Shown: positions 42,144 to 50,134 of the stretch, piece by piece
Position numbering within the stretch: position 1 is the first letter of the stretch
Layout: the number at the start of each line of letters is the position of its first letter
Source: Acidiphilium multivorum AIU301
GTDB lineage: Bacteria; Pseudomonadota; Alphaproteobacteria; Acetobacterales; Acetobacteraceae
DNA: 64,000 nt
Assembly (NCBI RefSeq): GCF_000202835.1
Contig: NC_015186.1
Location: forward strand, 1,302,001 to 1,366,000
Reading direction: 5' to 3'
Notes under the pieces: model-generated
What the model was told of the DNA's origin: nothing
The model's database searches: none
The model's input: the letters and a program-made list of their open reading frames with translations, nothing else
Translations under genes and position numbers: made by a program

Positions 42144-42941
42144 TCAGCTTCCGGTGAAATTCGGCTTGCGCTTTTCGTGGAAGGCCTCGACACCCTCCCG
42201 GAAATCATCGGACTGGCGCAGCCGGCTGTAGCAATGCCCCTCGAGTTCGATCGCGGTCGTCAGCAGGGCGTCCTCCGTCTCGTTCAGCAGCCGCTTCGCG
42301 GTTCGCTGCGCCAGCGGGGCGAAGGCGCGAAGCTCGTCCACCAGCGCGTCGACGGCGGCCTCGAGGCCGTCATCGGGCACGCATTCGGTGGCGATGCCCC
42401 AGTCCAGCGCCTGGCGGGCGGAGATGCGCCGCGACCGCATGACGATGTCCTTCGTCCGGGTGATCCCCACGATCTTCTGCAGGCGCGCCGAGCCGCCGGA
42501 ACCGGGGATCTGGCCGAGCTTCTGCTCGGGAAGCGCGTATTGGCAGGTCTCGGAGACGATGCGGAAATCGCAGGCCAGCGAGATCTCGAAGCCGACGCCG
42601 AAGGTGTAGCCGCGGTTCGCGGCGATCACCGGCTTCGAGCAGCGTGCCGGCGCGGCGATGTTCCATGCCAGTTTCGAGACATGCTCGGGCGATGCCTCGA
42701 GAAAGCCGCGGATATAGCCGCCCGAGGAAAAATGCTCGCCATCCGCCCGCAGCACGATGACCCTCACCCGCCCGTCCTCGTCGAGGGCTTCGAAGGCGTG
42801 GCGCAACTGGTCGCGCTGCGGCATCGAGATCGTGTTCATCGGCGGCCGGGCGAGGACGATGTCCGCGCGCGCGCGGTCGGCGTCGATCTCGACGCGGAAA
42901 CCGTCGAGGCGGGCGAGGCGGGGATCAGGCTGGTCGGTCAT
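42144..42941 (-). CDS. enoyl-CoA hydratase/isomerase family protein
   Basis: A 265-residue crotonase-fold enzyme. Oxyanion-hole segments (ADGEHFSSGGYIRGF and NRGYTFGVGFEISLACDF) and the later EQKLGQIPGSGGSARL are typical. It probably hydrates or cleaves a CoA-bound intermediate. The start ATG overlaps the ligase stop (ATGA at 42938-42941); it is the last gene of the ligase/molybdenum-hydroxylase operon. Confidence 0.88.
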   Translation of the reverse strand: MTDQPDPRLARLDGFRVEIDADRARADIVLARPPMNTISMPQRDQLRHAFEALDEDGRVRVIVLRADGEHFSSGGYIRGFLEASPEHVSKLAWNIAAPARCSKPVIAANRGYTFGVGFEISLACDFRIVSETCQYALPEQKLGQIPGSGGSARLQKIVGITRTKDIVMRSRRISARQALDWGIATECVPDDGLEAAVDALVDELRAFAPLAQRTAKRLLNETEDALLTTAIELEGHCYSRLRQSDDFREGVEAFHEKRKPNFTGS

Positions 42942-44491
42942 GGATTCGGTTCCCTGGAGGTGGATGGCCCGGAGAGGCACGATGGATCGAGGGCGTAGTC
43001 GCCGGCGACCAGCTTGCGCCGCAGCAGCTTGCCGACGGGCGATTTCGGCAGCTCCGTCACGAAGACATAGCGCCGGGGGCGCTTGAACCGCGCGAGGCCC
43101 GAGGCGATGCAATGCGCATCGAGCGTTTCCGCGGCCACCGGGGCGCGGCATTTCACGAAGGCCGCGACGATCCGGCCCCAGCGCTCGTCCGCCAGCCCGG
43201 CGACCGCGACCTCGGACACCGCGGGATGCAGCGACAGGCAGCTCTCGATCTCGACGGGCGACACGTTCTCCCCGCCGGTGATGATCATGTCATCGACCCG
43301 GCCGGTGACGAAGAGGTCGCCCTCCGCGTCGAGATATCCGGTGTCGCCGGTGAAATACCAGCCGCCGCGGAAGGCGCGCGCGTCGGCGTCCGGCCGCCGC
43401 CAGTAGCCCTCGAACGCCTCGTCGCTCGCGGCATCGGCGATGATCTCGCCCTCCTGCCCCTGGGCGACCTGCGCGTCCGGATCGCCGGGGCCGATCCGCA
43501 CGACGCGCAGACGCTGGTTGATCCCGGCCCGCCCCGCCGAACCGGGCTTGCGCACGGCATCCTGGTCGATCGCGAAGGTGTAGATCTCCGACGAGCCGTA
43601 ATGGTTGACGAACAGGTCCGGACGGAATGCGCCGTCGAGCGCCCGCAGCAGCCCGTCGGTCATCGAGGCGCCGGCGAAGCCGAGCTTGCGGACCGAGGAC
43701 ACGTCGTGCGCGGCAAAGGCCGGATGGTTCAGCAGGTCGTGATACAGCGTCGGCACCAGGTAGAGATTGGTGATCCGCTCCCGCTCGATCAGGCCGAGCG
43801 CGCGCGCCGGATCGAACCGCGGCAGGCAGACGAAGCAGCCGCCGATGAGCGACATGGCGAGCAGCGAGCGCACGCCCATGGTGTGATAGAGCGGCATCAC
43901 GCCCAGGGTGCGTTCGCCGGCGCGGTAGAGGTTCTGCGCGACATGGGCAATCGCCGCGGCGCGCTCGGTGCGGTGGCGGCGCGGAACGCCCTTGGGCTGC
44001 CCGGTCGTGCCGGAGGTGTAGAGCATCAGCGACAGCGCGTCCGCGGAGACGTCCGGCAGCGCGCCATCGCCGGCGAGATCGCGGAAGCCGATCCCGGCCG
44101 ATGCGGCGTTATCCACGCCGATCCGGAGCAGGCCGGCGGCGTCCACCGCGTCACCGGCCGCGTGCGACACCGGCTCGGTCACCAGCGCCCGCGCGCCGGC
44201 ATTCTCCACCACGAAGCCGAGTTCGTCGCCGGTCATCCGCCAGTTGACCGGGGTGATCACCAGCCCGGCGAACTGGCAGGCCCAATGCAGCGTCGCCGCC
44301 TCCCAGCGGTTCTGCAGCGCCGTGACGATCCGCTCCCCCGGCCGCAAGCCCAGCGCCGCGAGGCCGCGCGCCACCGCCTCGATCCTGGAGAGCCAGTCCC
44401 GATAGGAGAGGCGGACGCCCTCATCGACGATGGCGATCGCCGAGGGGTCGCGGGCCGCACTCGCGCGGAAGCTCGTGGCGAGATCAAACAT
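42938..44491 (-). CDS. acyl-CoA ligase (AMP-dependent synthetase family)
   Basis: 517 residues. It activates a carboxylic acid to its CoA thioester. The AMP-binding P-loop is LMLYTSGTTGQPKGVPRRH, followed by NHYGSSEIYTF, GWYFTGDTGYLDAEG, and the C-terminal PKSPVGKLLRRKLV with the catalytic Lys. It is flanked by the hydratase and the hydroxylase subunits, suggesting activation of an aromatic or heterocyclic acid before or after hydroxylation. The start is inside the 3' end of the iron-sulfur gene (8-bp overlap). Confidence 0.9.
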   Translation of the reverse strand: MFDLATSFRASAARDPSAIAIVDEGVRLSYRDWLSRIEAVARGLAALGLRPGERIVTALQNRWEAATLHWACQFAGLVITPVNWRMTGDELGFVVENAGARALVTEPVSHAAGDAVDAAGLLRIGVDNAASAGIGFRDLAGDGALPDVSADALSLMLYTSGTTGQPKGVPRRHRTERAAAIAHVAQNLYRAGERTLGVMPLYHTMGVRSLLAMSLIGGCFVCLPRFDPARALGLIERERITNLYLVPTLYHDLLNHPAFAAHDVSSVRKLGFAGASMTDGLLRALDGAFRPDLFVNHYGSSEIYTFAIDQDAVRKPGSAGRAGINQRLRVVRIGPGDPDAQVAQGQEGEIIADAASDEAFEGYWRRPDADARAFRGGWYFTGDTGYLDAEGDLFVTGRVDDMIITGGENVSPVEIESCLSLHPAVSEVAVAGLADERWGRIVAAFVKCRAPVAAETLDAHCIASGLARFKRPRRYVFVTELPKSPVGKLLRRKLVAGDYALDPSCLSGPSTSREPNP

Positions 44492-45002
44492 CGCCGCCCT
44501 CCCCCGCCGCGCCGCGCAGGGATGCGGCGGCATCGAGCGCCGCCGCGACGATCGGCGCATAGCCGGTGCAGCGGCAGAGATGGCCGCCGACGACCTCCCG
44601 CACGGCCTCCGGCGTCGGGTCGGGCGCGGCGCGCAGGAAGGCATCGAGCGACATCAGGATGCCGGCGGTGCAAAACCCGCATTGCAGCGCATGATGGCGG
44701 CGGAACGCCTCCTGCAGCACGCCGAGCCGTCCCGCCCGCGGCGCCAGGCCTTCCACCGTCCGCACCGCGCAGCCCTCGACCTGCAGCGCAAGGGTCAGGC
44801 AGGCCCGCGCCGGCGCGCCGTCGATCTGCACCGTGCAGGCGCCGCAGACGCCGTGCTCGCAGCCGACATGCGTTCCGGTCGCCCCCAATCCGTGCCGCAG
44901 CAGGTCGGCGAGCGAGGTGCGCGGCGACGCGGCGGCGACCACCTCGCGCCCGTTCAGGGTGAAGCGGATCTCGTGACGTTCGTCGGCGGTCAGGATCGTC
45001 AT
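44484..45002 (-). CDS. molybdenum hydroxylase small subunit, two [2Fe-2S] clusters (CoxS-like)
   Basis: 172 residues from the ATG at 45002. The plant-type ferredoxin cluster motif is GCEHGVCGACTVQIDG plus a later Cys in ARACLTLA. The second helical cluster domain has QCGFCTAGILMS and GHLCRCTGY. It carries electrons from the Mo site to FAD. The stop overlaps the ligase start and the start overlaps the medium-subunit stop. Confidence 0.93.
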   Translation of the reverse strand: MTILTADERHEIRFTLNGREVVAAASPRTSLADLLRHGLGATGTHVGCEHGVCGACTVQIDGAPARACLTLALQVEGCAVRTVEGLAPRAGRLGVLQEAFRRHHALQCGFCTAGILMSLDAFLRAAPDPTPEAVREVVGGHLCRCTGYAPIVAAALDAAASLRGAAGEGGDV

Positions 45003-45817
45003 GCCAGGGCCTCCCCGATGACCTGTCGGCCGAGATGGCGGACCAGGTCGCGCCGGTAGCGCGCGTCGGCGTGGAAATCCGCCCTCGCATCGAGCGACCA
45101 CGCGATGTCGTTCAGGGCGTCGTCGAGCGCCGTGCCGCCGATGCGGGGCAGCAGGCGCAGCACCGGCCGGTCGGCGACGCCGCCGATCGCGAGGCGCACG
45201 CCCTCAGCCGTCGCGACCGCCGCCGCCGCGACGATGGCGAAATCGCCATGCCGGCGGCCGATTTCGGCAAAGCCGCAGCGCCGCCCGGACAAGGCATCCG
45301 GCAGGCTGACCGCCTCGATCAGCTCGTCGTCACGCCGTGCGGTCTGCATCGTGCCGAGGAAGAAGTCGGCGGCGCCGATCACGCGCGCGCCCGCCGCGCT
45401 GCGAAGATGCACCGCGCCGTCGAGGGCCAGCAGGCAGAGCGGAATTTCAGCGCTCGGATCGGCATGGGCGACCGAGCCGCAAACGGTGCCGCGCGCGCGC
45501 GTCTGGTAATGGCCGACCCAGGGAAGCGCGAGACCGAGCAGCGGCGCCTCGCCGGCCAGCCCGGGCCGCGCCAGCAGCGCCGCCTGCCGCACCCCGGCGC
45601 CGATCCGAAGCTGCCCGCCCGCGTGGCGCACCTCGGCCAGCGCGCCGATCCGCATGATGTCGACCAGAACCTGCGGCCGGGCCAGCCGCATGTTCAGCAT
45701 CGCGACCAGCGACTGTCCTCCGGCCAGCACGCGCGCATCGGCCCCGTGGGTCCGCAGCGCGTCCAGCGCCTCATCCAGCGTCCCCGCGCGGCAATAGGCG
45801 AACGGCGCGGGCTTCAT
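44999..45817 (-). CDS. molybdenum hydroxylase FAD-binding medium subunit (CoxM-like)
   Basis: 272 residues. The FAD pyrophosphate contacts are VLAGGQSLVAMLNMRLA near residues 30-46 and a TRARGTVCGSVAHADPSAE segment near 105, characteristic of CutM/CoxM proteins; a C-terminal CO-dehydrogenase-flavoprotein domain follows. It overlaps the small subunit (4 bp) and the large subunit (4 bp), so the complex is translated as a unit. Confidence 0.93.
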   Translation of the reverse strand: MKPAPFAYCRAGTLDEALDALRTHGADARVLAGGQSLVAMLNMRLARPQVLVDIMRIGALAEVRHAGGQLRIGAGVRQAALLARPGLAGEAPLLGLALPWVGHYQTRARGTVCGSVAHADPSAEIPLCLLALDGAVHLRSAAGARVIGAADFFLGTMQTARRDDELIEAVSLPDALSGRRCGFAEIGRRHGDFAIVAAAAVATAEGVRLAIGGVADRPVLRLLPRIGGTALDDALNDIAWSLDARADFHADARYRRDLVRHLGRQVIGEALA

Positions 45818-48573
45818 CGGCCGGCTCCCAGCATGCGCAGCAGCCGTTTCCAGAAGCCCGGCCGCGTGGGCGCCCCGCCGGCGCGGCGCGCCAGCGCCTC
45901 GAAGAAGGCGCCGATGACGACCCGGCTCGCCCCCGCCAGCAGCCGGTCCCCCGCCGCGGCGACCCGGCCGCCGATCCGCACCTCGTACTCGTATTCGATC
46001 CGCGTGCCGCCCGCGCCCTCGGGCAGGAGCCGGACCCGGCCGCTGCCGGAACCGCCCCCCAGCGCCCCCTCGATCGTGCCGGACAGCGTCGCCTCCCGCG
46101 GCTCATCGAGACCGGAAAGCCGGATCGACGCGCTGTAACGCCCCCTCACCGGCCCGACGCCCAGCGTCACCTCGGCGGCGAACCCGTCGGCGCCGACGCG
46201 CCGCACGCCATGCGCGCCGGGGATGAGGGCGGCAAGTTCGTCCGGATCGAGCAGAATGGCCCAGATCGTGGCGGGCGGCGCGCCGACGGACGTATCCCCG
46301 CTTCCGCGCAAAAGCCGTGCGCCCGCACGCGGCTCCTCGCCGGCGACAGGGCCTGCGGGACGGTTCGCGGGGGGCGGCTCCGCCTCGCCGAGCAGGGCGC
46401 GCAGCCGCGAGGGGGTCAGTGGCAGATGGAGTTCGGCAACGCCCAGCGCGTCGGCCACCGCATTGGCGATGCAGACCGGCGTGGACATGCAGTTCCCCTC
46501 GCCGACCCCCTTGGCGCCGAGCGGCGTGAAGGGGGATGGCGTTTCCTCGTGCAGGATCTCGATCGGCGGCACCTCGGTCGCGTAGGGCAGCATGTAGTCG
46601 GCGAAGGTGCCCGAGATGAACGCGCCGTCGTCGCCATAGGCCAGCTCCTCCAGCAGCGCCGCGCCGAGCCCCTGCGCGAACCCGCCGCGGATCTGCCCGT
46701 CGACCATCGCGGGATGCAGGATCGTGCCGCAATCATGCATGGTCACGTAGCGGTCGATCCGCACCCGGCCCGTCGCCCGCTCGATCTCGACGCCACAGAA
46801 ATCGAAGATGAAGCCGTGGCAGAGCGAGGAATTCACCTCGTCCGCATCATTGGGCGCGGCGAGTTCGGGCGGTGTCCAGAATACGGTCTCGCGCAGCGTC
46901 TGGCCGAGTTCGGCATCGATCGTCCCGGGCGCCCAGTGGCCGGCGGCGGCGATGCGGCCGAAGGAGACGCCGTTGCCGGGATTGCCCGCGGCGAAGATCC
47001 GGCCTCCGGCGAAGCGGACCTCGCCGACCTGCACGTTGAGCTGTCCGGCGGCGACCGCCGCAAGCCGGGCCCGCAGCCGCCGCGCCGCGAGCGCCGCCGT
47101 GCCCGCGACCGCCGGCGCGAAGCGGCTGGAATAATTGCCGGAGGCGATCGACCAGGCATCCCTGGCGGTATCGAGGTCGGTCACCACCATGATGTCCGCC
47201 GGATCGAGGCCGAACTCGTCGGCCACGACCTGGGCGAGCACGGTCCGGTGCCCCTGCCCCTGCGGCACCGAGGCGACATGGACCGAAACGCCGCCGAGCG
47301 GGTCGAGCGCCACCGTCGCGCTGGCCTGCGCGCCGTTCTTGGGCCCGGCGCGGCGCCGTTCCTCCGGCGTCAGCACCGTCGAGACATAGCCCATGTTGGA
47401 GACGCTGGGCTCGACCACCACGGCGAGCCCGATGCCGTACAGCCTCCCGGCCGCCCTGGCCGCGGCGCGCCGTTCGAGCAGCGAGGCGTATCCTCCGGCG
47501 TCCAGCGCGCGGTCGAACGCGCCGCGGTAATCGCCGGAATCGTACAGCGCGCCGGTTGCCGTGCGATAGGGAAAGGCGCCGGCCGGAATCAGGTTTCGCC
47601 GCACCACCTCGACCGGATCGAGCCCGAGCTCCACCGCGATCCGCTGCATCAGCCGCTCCAGCGGATAGTAGACCTGCGGACCGCCGAAGCCGCGCACGAG
47701 GCCGGTCGGCGTCTTGTTGGTCGCCACCACCCGGTTGCGGATGCGCAGGTTGCGGATGTCATAGGCCCCGGTCATGTTGCCGTGCATGCGATAAAGCGTC
47801 GCGGGTTCCGGGGCGCGCAGATAGGCGCCGCAGTCTTCCAGCTGGTCCCAGTCCAGCGCGAGGATCCGCCCCTCGGCGTCGACGGCGGCGTCGAGGCGCG
47901 TCACCCGGTTGGTCGCCGACACCGACGCGGCGAGATGCTCCATCCGGTCTTCGATCCATTTCACCTGGCGCCCGGTCAGCCGGGCGCAGGCGGCCATCAG
48001 CACGACATAGGGCGCCACCCCCTGCTTGACGCCGAAACTGCCGCCGGAGTCCGGCGGCATCCGCAACCGCAAGCGGTTGCCCGGCACGTTGAGCGCGCGC
48101 GCCAGCACGGCGTGGATGCTGAACGGCCCCTGGAAATTGGCCTGCACGTCGTAGGAATCGCCGTGCGCGTCATAGGTCGCGATCACGCCATAGGTTTCCA
48201 TCGGCGCGCCGGTGTTGCGCGGATAGCGCGCGACGACGGTGATCCGGCGCGCCGCCGCCGCGAACGCCGCATCCGGATCGCCATAGGAAAAATGCCGCTC
48301 GTTCAGCAGGTTCCCCCCGACCGCCTCGTGCAGCACCGGCGCGCCGGGCGCAAGCGCCGCCTCGGGATCGACGACGGGGTCGAGCAGGCGGTAGCGCACC
48401 CTGACGGCGTCCAGCGCGTCCTCGGCGATGTAGCGATCGGCGGCGATGGCGACGGCGACCGGCTCGCCCACGTAGCGCACGCGGTCGGTTGCCATCACCC
48501 GCGCCTCCGCCGGCACGCGCACGCTCGCGACCAGCGCGCCGGTGACCGGCACGAGATCCTCGCCGGTGATCAC
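45814..48573 (-). CDS. molybdenum hydroxylase large subunit (CoxL-like) with fused C-terminal CoxG/SRPBCC domain, open part
   Basis: 919 residues if read from the GTG at 48573. The aldehyde oxidase/xanthine dehydrogenase fold binds molybdopterin cytosine dinucleotide: GSFGVKQG, TPTGLVRGFGGPQVYYPLERL, QGQGHRTVLAQ, and the catalytic Glu in GAKGVGEGNC. The active-site loop lacks the Cys of true CO dehydrogenase, so the substrate is probably an aromatic or N-heterocycle. After about residue 750 a linker leads to a CoxG-like SRPBCC domain (APPATIWAILLDPDELAALIPG). The true gene begins upstream at 48780 but is interrupted by an in-frame TGA, so this form lacks about 70 N-terminal residues and may be inactive. 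Confidence 0.8.
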   Translation of the reverse strand: MITGEDLVPVTGALVASVRVPAEARVMATDRVRYVGEPVAVAIAADRYIAEDALDAVRVRYRLLDPVVDPEAALAPGAPVLHEAVGGNLLNERHFSYGDPDAAFAAAARRITVVARYPRNTGAPMETYGVIATYDAHGDSYDVQANFQGPFSIHAVLARALNVPGNRLRLRMPPDSGGSFGVKQGVAPYVVLMAACARLTGRQVKWIEDRMEHLAASVSATNRVTRLDAAVDAEGRILALDWDQLEDCGAYLRAPEPATLYRMHGNMTGAYDIRNLRIRNRVVATNKTPTGLVRGFGGPQVYYPLERLMQRIAVELGLDPVEVVRRNLIPAGAFPYRTATGALYDSGDYRGAFDRALDAGGYASLLERRAAARAAGRLYGIGLAVVVEPSVSNMGYVSTVLTPEERRRAGPKNGAQASATVALDPLGGVSVHVASVPQGQGHRTVLAQVVADEFGLDPADIMVVTDLDTARDAWSIASGNYSSRFAPAVAGTAALAARRLRARLAAVAAGQLNVQVGEVRFAGGRIFAAGNPGNGVSFGRIAAAGHWAPGTIDAELGQTLRETVFWTPPELAAPNDADEVNSSLCHGFIFDFCGVEIERATGRVRIDRYVTMHDCGTILHPAMVDGQIRGGFAQGLGAALLEELAYGDDGAFISGTFADYMLPYATEVPPIEILHEETPSPFTPLGAKGVGEGNCMSTPVCIANAVADALGVAELHLPLTPSRLRALLGEAEPPPANRPAGPVAGEEPRAGARLLRGSGDTSVGAPPATIWAILLDPDELAALIPGAHGVRRVGADGFAAEVTLGVGPVRGRYSASIRLSGLDEPREATLSGTIEGALGGGSGSGRVRLLPEGAGGTRIEYEYEVRIGGRVAAAGDRLLAGASRVVIGAFFEALARRAGGAPTRPGFWKRLLRMLGAGR

Positions 48574-48780
48574 GGCAAAGACGCCGGGAATCGCCAGCGC
48601 CTCCCGGACATCGATCTCCTCGATCGCGGCGTGAGGGTGGGGCGAGCGCAGGATGGCGGCATGCGCCGTTGCCGGGCCGACCGGCAGATCGTCGATGAAA
48701 CGTCACCGCCCCGTCAGCAGGGGGGCATCCTCGTTCCGCGGGAGCGAACGACCGAGCGACTTCCGGGCCTGCGTGTCCAT
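48574..48780 (-). pseudogene. N-terminal segment of the CoxL-like gene, cut by in-frame TGA
   Basis: A perfect AGGAGG ribosome site precedes an ATG at 48780 that encodes MDTQARKSLGRSLPRNEDA, then PLLTGR, followed by TGA (48703-48705), and then continues in the same frame with RFIDDLPVGPATAHAAIL and joins the large open frame. Family members normally read LLTGRGRFxDD here, so a single base change (GGA or CGA to TGA) explains the stop. It is either a nonsense mutation, a read-through codon or a sequence error. Confidence 0.8.
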
Positions 48781-48901
48781 GCCTGTTTCCTCCTGGCGCC
48801 GCGATCGCGGCACTCATCTCGGCCGGAGACTAGCGCCGCGAGACCGCGGCTGGCGACCGCATCGCGTCACGCGACTTTGCAAATCATCTCAAAATCGGCC
48901 G

Positions 48902-49795
48902 TCAGGCGGAGCGGAGCACGGCGCGGAACTCTCGCGGCGCGACGCTGACATGGTCGCGGAAAAAGCGGCTGAATTGCGCGGGCGCGCCGAAGCCGAGGCG
49001 CTCGCCGATCCCGGCGAGGCTCTCATCCGCCTTCATCACGGCGGCGACCGCGCGCTCGACCCGCAGCATGTTGAGGAAGACCAGCGGCGTCACGCCGGTC
49101 GAGCGCTCGAACAGCCGGAAGAAATGCGCGCGCGACAGGCCGGCCTCCCGGGCCATACGCTCCATCCCCGGCACGCCGCCGGGATCAGCCCTCATCGCGT
49201 CGATCGAGCGGCGCACCCGATGGTCGATCGAGGCGCGGCCGGCCGCCTCGATCAGCATCGCCCGCCGGTCCCGCCAGGACCCGAAGCGCGCGACGACGCG
49301 AATCATCAACTCGGAGAGCAGGGCCTCGCGCGCCGCCGCCTGCATCGTCGGGTCGACCATCGCGTCGGCGAGATCGTGGGCCAGCCGGCGGATGCCGGCA
49401 TCGATGCGGCCCGCCGAGGCGGGGAAAAATCCCGGCGCTCCCGGCGCGATCCGGTCCGCCTGCACCAGCCGGAGCCAGGACGGGTCGATATACAGCGCCA
49501 GAATCAGCGCATTGCGCCGCGATGGATCGTGCACATAGGCATGCGGCTCCCAGGCGTTCACCAGCACGGCAAGGTCATCGGTCAGCGGCGCCAGGCTCGA
49601 ACCGACCGCGAACCTCGTGTCGTCCCCGCCCAGCTTGAGCAGGACGTGGCAATGCGGATGGGCATGGCGCACCAGGCTGCGGTCCATGTCGAGCAAGGCG
49701 ACCCGGCCAAAGTCGCCATGGGCGATCCGCAGCGCACGCGACACGTTCAGCCCTCCTCGAAACGGGCGCCGCGACCGCAACCGATCATGGGCCAT
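48902..49795 (-). CDS. AraC-family transcriptional regulator
   Basis: 297 residues. An N-terminal cupin-like sensing domain (RHAHPHCHVLLKLGG) is followed by a C-terminal double HTH (MAREAGLSRAHFFRLFERSTGVTPL and LAGIGERLGFGAPAQFSRFFRDHVSVAPREFR, residues about 205-290). It lies directly upstream of the hydroxylase operon on the same strand, about 120 bp from its ATG, and is the best candidate for its activator. Confidence 0.88.
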   Translation of the reverse strand: MAHDRLRSRRPFRGGLNVSRALRIAHGDFGRVALLDMDRSLVRHAHPHCHVLLKLGGDDTRFAVGSSLAPLTDDLAVLVNAWEPHAYVHDPSRRNALILALYIDPSWLRLVQADRIAPGAPGFFPASAGRIDAGIRRLAHDLADAMVDPTMQAAAREALLSELMIRVVARFGSWRDRRAMLIEAAGRASIDHRVRRSIDAMRADPGGVPGMERMAREAGLSRAHFFRLFERSTGVTPLVFLNMLRVERAVAAVMKADESLAGIGERLGFGAPAQFSRFFRDHVSVAPREFRAVLRSA

Positions 49796-50134
49796 GATGA
49801 AAGTTTCACGCGCGCCAGTTTCTCGATCGCCCCTCGCCTGTCAACGGCGCGAGGCCCGGCGCGACGCGATGACGCCAGCGGTCCGCGATGTCCACAGCGG
49901 ATGCGGCCCCCGATCTGCCAGGGTGCGATCTGCCAGGGTGTCGATGAGGTGCAGACGCCATTTCGGAGAGCCGCGAACGCAGATGGGGAAAACCGGTCGA
50001 TGATGGGCCGTCCAGGACCAGGCGTCTTTCCGTCGGGACGGCGAAGGCGGCCACGCCGCGTCATGATATGAGACGATGTTTGCCGCAGCGCGGCATGGAT
50101 GATAAGCGGAACGCTGTCTTGAGGAGGGGCCCGG
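49796..50134. other. intergenic region with 15-bp tandem duplication
   Basis: No gene is supported; ORFs on either strand are Arg/Pro-rich shadows. Contains two perfect tandem copies of CGATCTGCCAGGGTG (49911-49940). It separates the divergent AraC and carbonic anhydrase genes and must hold both promoters. A GAGGAGG segment precedes the carbonic anhydrase start. Confidence 0.5.

Follow-up and report, generated by a model that had tools for sequence, protein, structure and literature searches.

Operons of the hmfABCDE kind have been described in Cupriavidus basilensis HMF14 and Pseudomonas pseudoalcaligenes CECT 5344. According to PMC6678421, HmfABC is a molybdenum furoyl-CoA dehydrogenase, HmfD a CoA ligase and HmfE a thioesterase, and P. 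pseudoalcaligenes has an AraC-type regulator. In the conclusion of its authors, wild-type CECT 5344 has an inactive hmf pathway because its AraC protein is not functional. As described there, the gene kinds of both operons match those of five genes found in a window of 64,000 nucleotides (the whole stretch of DNA analysed here) from Acidiphilium multivorum AIU301. For strain HMF14, the likeness is one of described gene kinds, the sequence comparison having been made with a plasmid of Cupriavidus pinatubonensis.

The operon and its interrupted large-subunit gene

Pfam and NCBIfam place the five genes in the order molybdenum large subunit, FAD subunit, FeS subunit, acyl-CoA ligase and enoyl-CoA hydratase family, which are the kinds found in hmfABCDE (Table 1). 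This order recurs in full in 77 of the 98 orthologous loci and in part, within the stretch covered or matched, in the other 21. It is also shared by plasmid p2 of C. pinatubonensis (locus L213), whose proteins A to E are 58, 57, 66, 63 and 80% identical to those of AIU301; the genes of this plasmid carry no hmf annotation and are labelled hmf here from their order and from the genus. The AIU301 genes are a probable hmfABCDE 2-furoate operon, whose substrate we infer. The G+C content of the operon is 67-75% per kb, like its surroundings, and a foreign base composition was thus ruled out.

Table 1. Features of the probable hmf locus of AIU301 (positions in the window)
Feature	Coordinates	Strand	Evidence and remarks
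Probable hmfA, interrupted by the TGA at codon 26: molybdenum large subunit of furoyl-CoA dehydrogenase, C-terminally fused to a CoxG-like domain	45814..48780	-	Pfam, operon order
Probable hmfB: FAD-binding medium subunit	44999..45817	-	Pfam FAD_binding_5; ATGA overlap with hmfA
Probable hmfC: 2Fe-2S small subunit	44484..45002	-	Pfam Fer2, Fer2_2; ATGA overlap with hmfB; start re-assigned to ATG 45002
Probable hmfD: AMP-binding acyl-CoA (2-furoyl-CoA) synthetase	42938..44491	-	Pfam AMP-binding; 8-base overlap with hmfC; start re-assigned to ATG 44491
Probable hmfE: enoyl-CoA hydratase-family protein of the 2-oxoglutaroyl-CoA hydrolase type	42144..42941	-	Pfam ECH_1; ATGA overlap with hmfD
AraC-family regulator adjoining the operon	48902..49795	-	Pfam HTH_18; E104, F111, R112, W115 and S118 all changed
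Premature TGA, in frame, at codon 26 of hmfA	48703..48705	-	Gly/Ala column in 127/127 covering homologue rows
GTG, first ATG/GTG/TTG in frame past the TGA; re-initiation candidate, disfavoured	48571..48573	-	duplex -3.0 kcal/mol
ATG codon 96, internal, in frame; re-initiation candidate	48493..48495	-	duplex -9.5 kcal/mol (spacing not scored); 95 residues lost

Read on the minus strand, the TGA at 48705-48703 is codon 26 of a molybdenum-hydroxylase large-subunit frame of 988 codons opened by ATG 48780, exactly where the original prediction had placed it. The peptide read from this ATG up to the TGA is MDTQARKSLGRSLPRNEDAPLLTGR. As also predicted (more than 960 unbroken codons), the frame is open after the TGA for 962 codons, up to the end stop at 45816-45814 of the same strand. 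The ribosome site called perfect at ATG 48780 was found as well: the start codon is preceded by a strong Shine-Dalgarno match, CAGGAGGAAACAGGC-ATG (duplex of -10.3 kcal/mol, spacing not scored). Codons 10-25 of hmfA (GRSLPRNEDAPLLTGR) align without gap and in frame with the consensus of relatives (GRSVERVEDAALLTGR), so that the gene model, the start and the frame are right. Furthermore, the frame is preserved on both sides of the TGA, which is therefore not due to an indel. The rest of the five-gene operon had been described as intact and overlapping, and this held: none of the four downstream genes is interrupted and, with the re-assigned starts, all four junctions (A/B, B/C, C/D and D/E) overlap, by 4, 4, 8 and 4 bases, respectively.

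The part of hmfA past the TGA matches Pfam MoCoBD_1, MoCoBD_2, Ald_Xan_dh_C and COXG. Against two CO dehydrogenase models, this part scores 456.7 bits for a cut-off of 950 and 441.1 bits for a cut-off of 991.15, and identity as CoxL was rejected. The HmfA type (furoyl-CoA dehydrogenase) is a better fit for the large subunit than CoxL. Hence, the label 'CoxL-type' given to it earlier stands at the superfamily level, but not as CoxL itself, since the scores are under half of the CO dehydrogenase cut-offs.

Distribution of the stop and of the operon

The column of codon 26 holds 110 Gly, 17 Ala and no stop in 127 covering homologue rows, which come from other species. In a first set, 98 of 100 homologous loci cover the codon (93 Gly, 5 Ala and no stop), 97 of the 100 rows being distinct. 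A class-wide search, in which 26 of 385 genomes matched (own genome included), added 29 further loci, taken from the 33 rows outside the own genome; here the residue is Gly in 17 loci and Ala in 12, and none has a stop. The two sets overlap in at least one place (L011 = L227). The nearest homologues of AIU301 hmfA are 72-75% identical. A stop common to relatives was thus rejected, and none of the 127 rows has the stop kept at the site that conserved UGA read-through would leave. Among the relatives examined, the premature stop appears private to the AIU301 genome, orthologues having a sense codon.

Other large subunits have in-frame stops at query positions 801-821, where the unfused form normally ends (all 13 stop-bearing paralogues and 3 of the 29 class homologues); this placement check covered the stop-flagged rows other than L233, G580:C38 and five rows without a fetched locus. 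The tally at the codon-26 column leaves aside the more distant paralogues, one of which (L007) seems to have Thr there. In seven loci (L231, L233, L235, L236, L237, L238 and L239), similarity to the query extends no further than residue 793-837, and three of these loci have a stop at 801-805; their large subunits apparently have no CoxG-like domain fused at the C-terminus. Besides, the hmfA homologue of a Bosea vestrisii plasmid (NZ_CP126308.1, L212 6959-9884) has been annotated as a pair of CDS that overlap, and its alignment needs two frames; this copy looks broken or mis-sequenced too.

No second copy of hmfA was found in the AIU301 genome at E <= 1e-100 (24 candidates, 14 scored). In 12 other species of the genus, of which four have assemblies that are 78-88% complete, no hmfA orthologue was found; at E <= 1e-100, just paralogues with 34-36% identity were detected, in four of these species, and a repeat comparison with six of the sister species gave no match as well. 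The region of the operon and regulator (about 42144-50125 in the window) has no match in the stretches compared from six sister species. To the right of the operon, carbonic anhydrase, panB and/or rpsD are conserved in the sister stretches, the match of the nearest sister breaking at about 50125, and some right-flank match exists in 11 of the 12 species. Absence in the sisters together with a conserved right flank fits either a gain in AIU301 or a loss in the sisters. The search for a left insertion border gave scattered left-flank matches in sister species. No copy of the site was found in viral contigs, and no Acidiphilium was present among the plasmid matches listed (25 of 45 records), the best of which is 68% identical. 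Strains near AIU301 exist: according to a table in PMC8147356, AIU301 has 99.12% ANI to A. multivorum LMS, and A. cryptum JF-5 and Acidiphilium sp. JA12-A1, AccI, AccII and ZJSH63 have 98.97-99.29% ANI to LMS.

Decoding of the UGA codon

Read-through of the TGA was one of the options of the original prediction. All six genes of the locus (operon and regulator) end in TGA and, therefore, TGA is a working stop here. Release factor 2 gave one match above the cut-off, nearly full length (profile positions 14-352 of 353), so that a missing release factor was rejected.

A first form of decoding would be the insertion of selenocysteine, as some molybdenum hydroxylases need selenium and a model of selenium-dependent xanthine dehydrogenase is among the below-cut-off matches. 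However, the genome has no match to the selenocysteine synthase SelA, which the same search finds in E. coli, and the two matches above the cut-off of the tRNA-Sec model are tRNA-Ser with anticodons UGA and CGA. Moreover, the 66 bases from the TGA fold no better than shuffles (z 0.47), and the homologue rows have no Cys at codon 26. To the extent that the assembly is complete, a selenoprotein (SelA, tRNA-Sec, SECIS) is thus refuted, and its probability is practically negligible.

A second form would be the low-level decoding of UGA by near-cognate tRNA-Trp, giving a little full-length HmfA. The frame past the TGA is conserved, and published read-through of UGA depends on the species: with one reporter, PMC9481147 gives a level of about 12% for E. 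coli but of 0.08% for P. putida and 1/2500 for P. aeruginosa. PMC7918605 reports bacterial in-frame stops with dN/dS < 1, and prokaryotic genes with such stops are, according to it, not always dead. However, every homologue examined lacks the stop, and a bulky Trp would be unlikely to be harmless because the column is Gly or Ala throughout the 127 rows. The genome's tRNA-Trp match has the usual CCA anticodon and carries a G at the D-stem position altered in the Hirsh suppressor. No UCA anticodon was detected among 43 tRNA matches, a list that is incomplete (it is for instance without the GAT tRNA-Ile) and from which a suppressor gene may have been missed; a suppressor tRNA of this kind was rejected within this list. 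With SelA absent and release factor 2 present, read-through is disfavoured and retains a small chance.

Re-initiation downstream of the stop

A shortened working enzyme could also result from re-initiation. Besides GTG 48573, which had been proposed, the candidate sites are ATG 48495 and non-standard starts closer to the TGA. The product from GTG 48573 would keep profile positions 48-109 of 110 of Ald_Xan_dh_C and still score above the cut-off of this first domain (37.2 versus 31.3 bits), but it loses nearly half of the domain, and the ribosome site is weak (-3.0 versus -10.3 kcal/mol at the true ATG). At ATG 48495, the duplex of -9.5 kcal/mol is close to that of the true start, but even more is lost, namely 95 residues. 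An SD-like GGCGGTGA overlaps the TGA, six bases 5' of the in-frame ATC of codon 29, with a duplex of -12.0 kcal/mol (spacing not scored). This site and ATG 48495 speak slightly for re-initiation; ATC is a very weak start codon. Furthermore, codons 9-69 retain all 18 columns conserved at >=95% and have therefore not long been free to drift, which argues against an enzyme made from a later start. Re-initiation giving such an enzyme is very unlikely, and the option of GTG 48573 is disfavoured.

A related scenario would preserve the operon in a throttled state from which it is easily revived, together with a rewired AraC: terminating ribosomes would be restarted by the SD-like GGCGGTGA at ATC codon 29 (or at ATG codon 96), or UGA would leak, yielding traces of furoyl-CoA dehydrogenase. 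We give it a slim chance.

Signs of decay in hmfA and in the regulator

The protein branch of hmfA relative to the other four genes (fixed tree) has a ratio of 1.28 (rank 7/45), and of 1.24 (rank 9/50) in a second set. The terminal hmfA branch of AIU301 is the longest of 77 in the first set and the second of 73 in the second one, and that of the other operon genes is also long (rank 3/77 and 2/73). Since the ratio is unexceptional, no long neutral drift is shown; such a ratio is as expected for a recent break. At the 95% level, the changed columns of hmfA are 0/18 in codons 9-69, 2/138 in codons 70-400, 7/184 in codons 401-780 (reached by 2/91 relatives) and 5/52 in codons 781-988 (reached by 1/91 relatives); at the 90% level, 1/9 columns is changed in codons 9-25. 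For the whole HmfA, 12/390 conserved columns are changed, which 3/92 relatives reach, and changes in hmfB to hmfE are not unusual. The C-terminal excess would not be produced by a fresh mutation alone and counts against reading the break as recent. Both the branch and the column comparisons lean against AIU301 because its nearest relatives are distant, other taxa having nearer ones in the set.

The AraC regulator upstream of the operon is unusual. The near-invariant set E104, F111, R112, W115 and S118, intact in 76 of 78 relatives (the other two change one residue each), is entirely replaced in AIU301 without any indel. A double frameshift behind this loss was rejected, as no other frame restores the motif. 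Moreover, 10/94 conserved columns are changed, more than in any of 75 relatives, and the branch ratio is 1.67 (rank 2/50). Of the 98 orthologous loci, 77 have an AraC homologue no more than 400 bases upstream of the operon and one has it elsewhere; in the other 20, none was found. The loss of these residues suggests that the operon is under relaxed selection. Since the near-invariant motif is lost, the operon had probably been silent or little used even before hmfA was interrupted.

Origin of the stop codon

The main rival, which ranks second, is an error of sequencing or of the culture stock: a wrong deposited base or a mutation in the sequenced clone only, the gene of the living strain being intact. 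The TGA was read from one deposited assembly (4,214,744 bases, 9 contigs) and is one codon alone in an otherwise open frame of 988 codons. The lack of any changed column in codons 9-69 (0/18 at the 95% level) also agrees with an error. However, PMC7677001 lists in its table the AIU301 entry as a complete genome (4.21 Mb, chromosome of 3,749,411, eight plasmids). In the same genome, neither the 105 matches to ABC_tran (from 150 scored among 188 candidates) nor the 10 matches to MoCoBD_1 hold an in-frame stop, giving 0/115 combined. This sample covers domains only and would therefore miss N-terminal stops elsewhere; hmfA itself is among the 10 clean MoCoBD_1 matches. In addition, the frame kept on either side of the TGA leaves no indel to be explained, and the adjoining AraC gene independently shows relaxed constraint. 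We consider an error rather unlikely.

The best reading, which we hold to be probable, is a recent and genuine nonsense mutation that inactivates HmfA. The original prediction had listed four options without choosing; this one is now favoured, ahead of sequence error, read-through and re-initiation at GTG 48573. The mutation would have struck codon 26, where the rows examined have Gly or Ala, in an operon that probably was little used or silent before the break of hmfA. Translation would stop after 25 residues, and no large subunit would be made. Since the four downstream genes overlap head to tail, their expression should fall as well once hmfA is no longer translated through. The remaining frame would be intact because the mutation is recent. 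The furoate pathway of AIU301 is thus probably switched off, judging from its genes.

An annotation of 'furoate or CO oxidation' derived for the species from its type strain may consequently be wrong. Otherwise an ordinary nonsense allele, this TGA provides a small, testable example of a silent catabolic operon, with apparent damage to both the regulator and an enzyme.

Comparison with known systems

AIU301 HmfA and CoxL have molybdopterin domains in common, and the best match of HmfA among solved structures, by sequence, is CoxL (8uem, E 6.1e-125). The AIU301 protein differs from CoxL by scores under half of the curated cut-offs and by a fused CoxG domain, and its operon differs from the CoxL system by genes of a CoA ligase and of the hydratase family. 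The C. pinatubonensis plasmid has the same five-gene order, with 57-80% identity; there, however, a transporter or XdhC gene follows hmfE, whereas AIU301 has an OmpA-like reading frame at this place (a label judged from sequence). Unlike the known hmfABCDE operons, that of AIU301 has an in-frame TGA at codon 26 of hmfA. The closest precedent for a silent hmf operon is the wild-type locus of P. pseudoalcaligenes CECT 5344, a complete-looking furoate operon that is silent through its non-functional AraC, as concluded by the authors of PMC6678421. In CECT 5344, one mutation of the regulator restores growth, according to the same report, and the enzyme genes therefore work; AIU301 has instead an interrupted enzyme gene.
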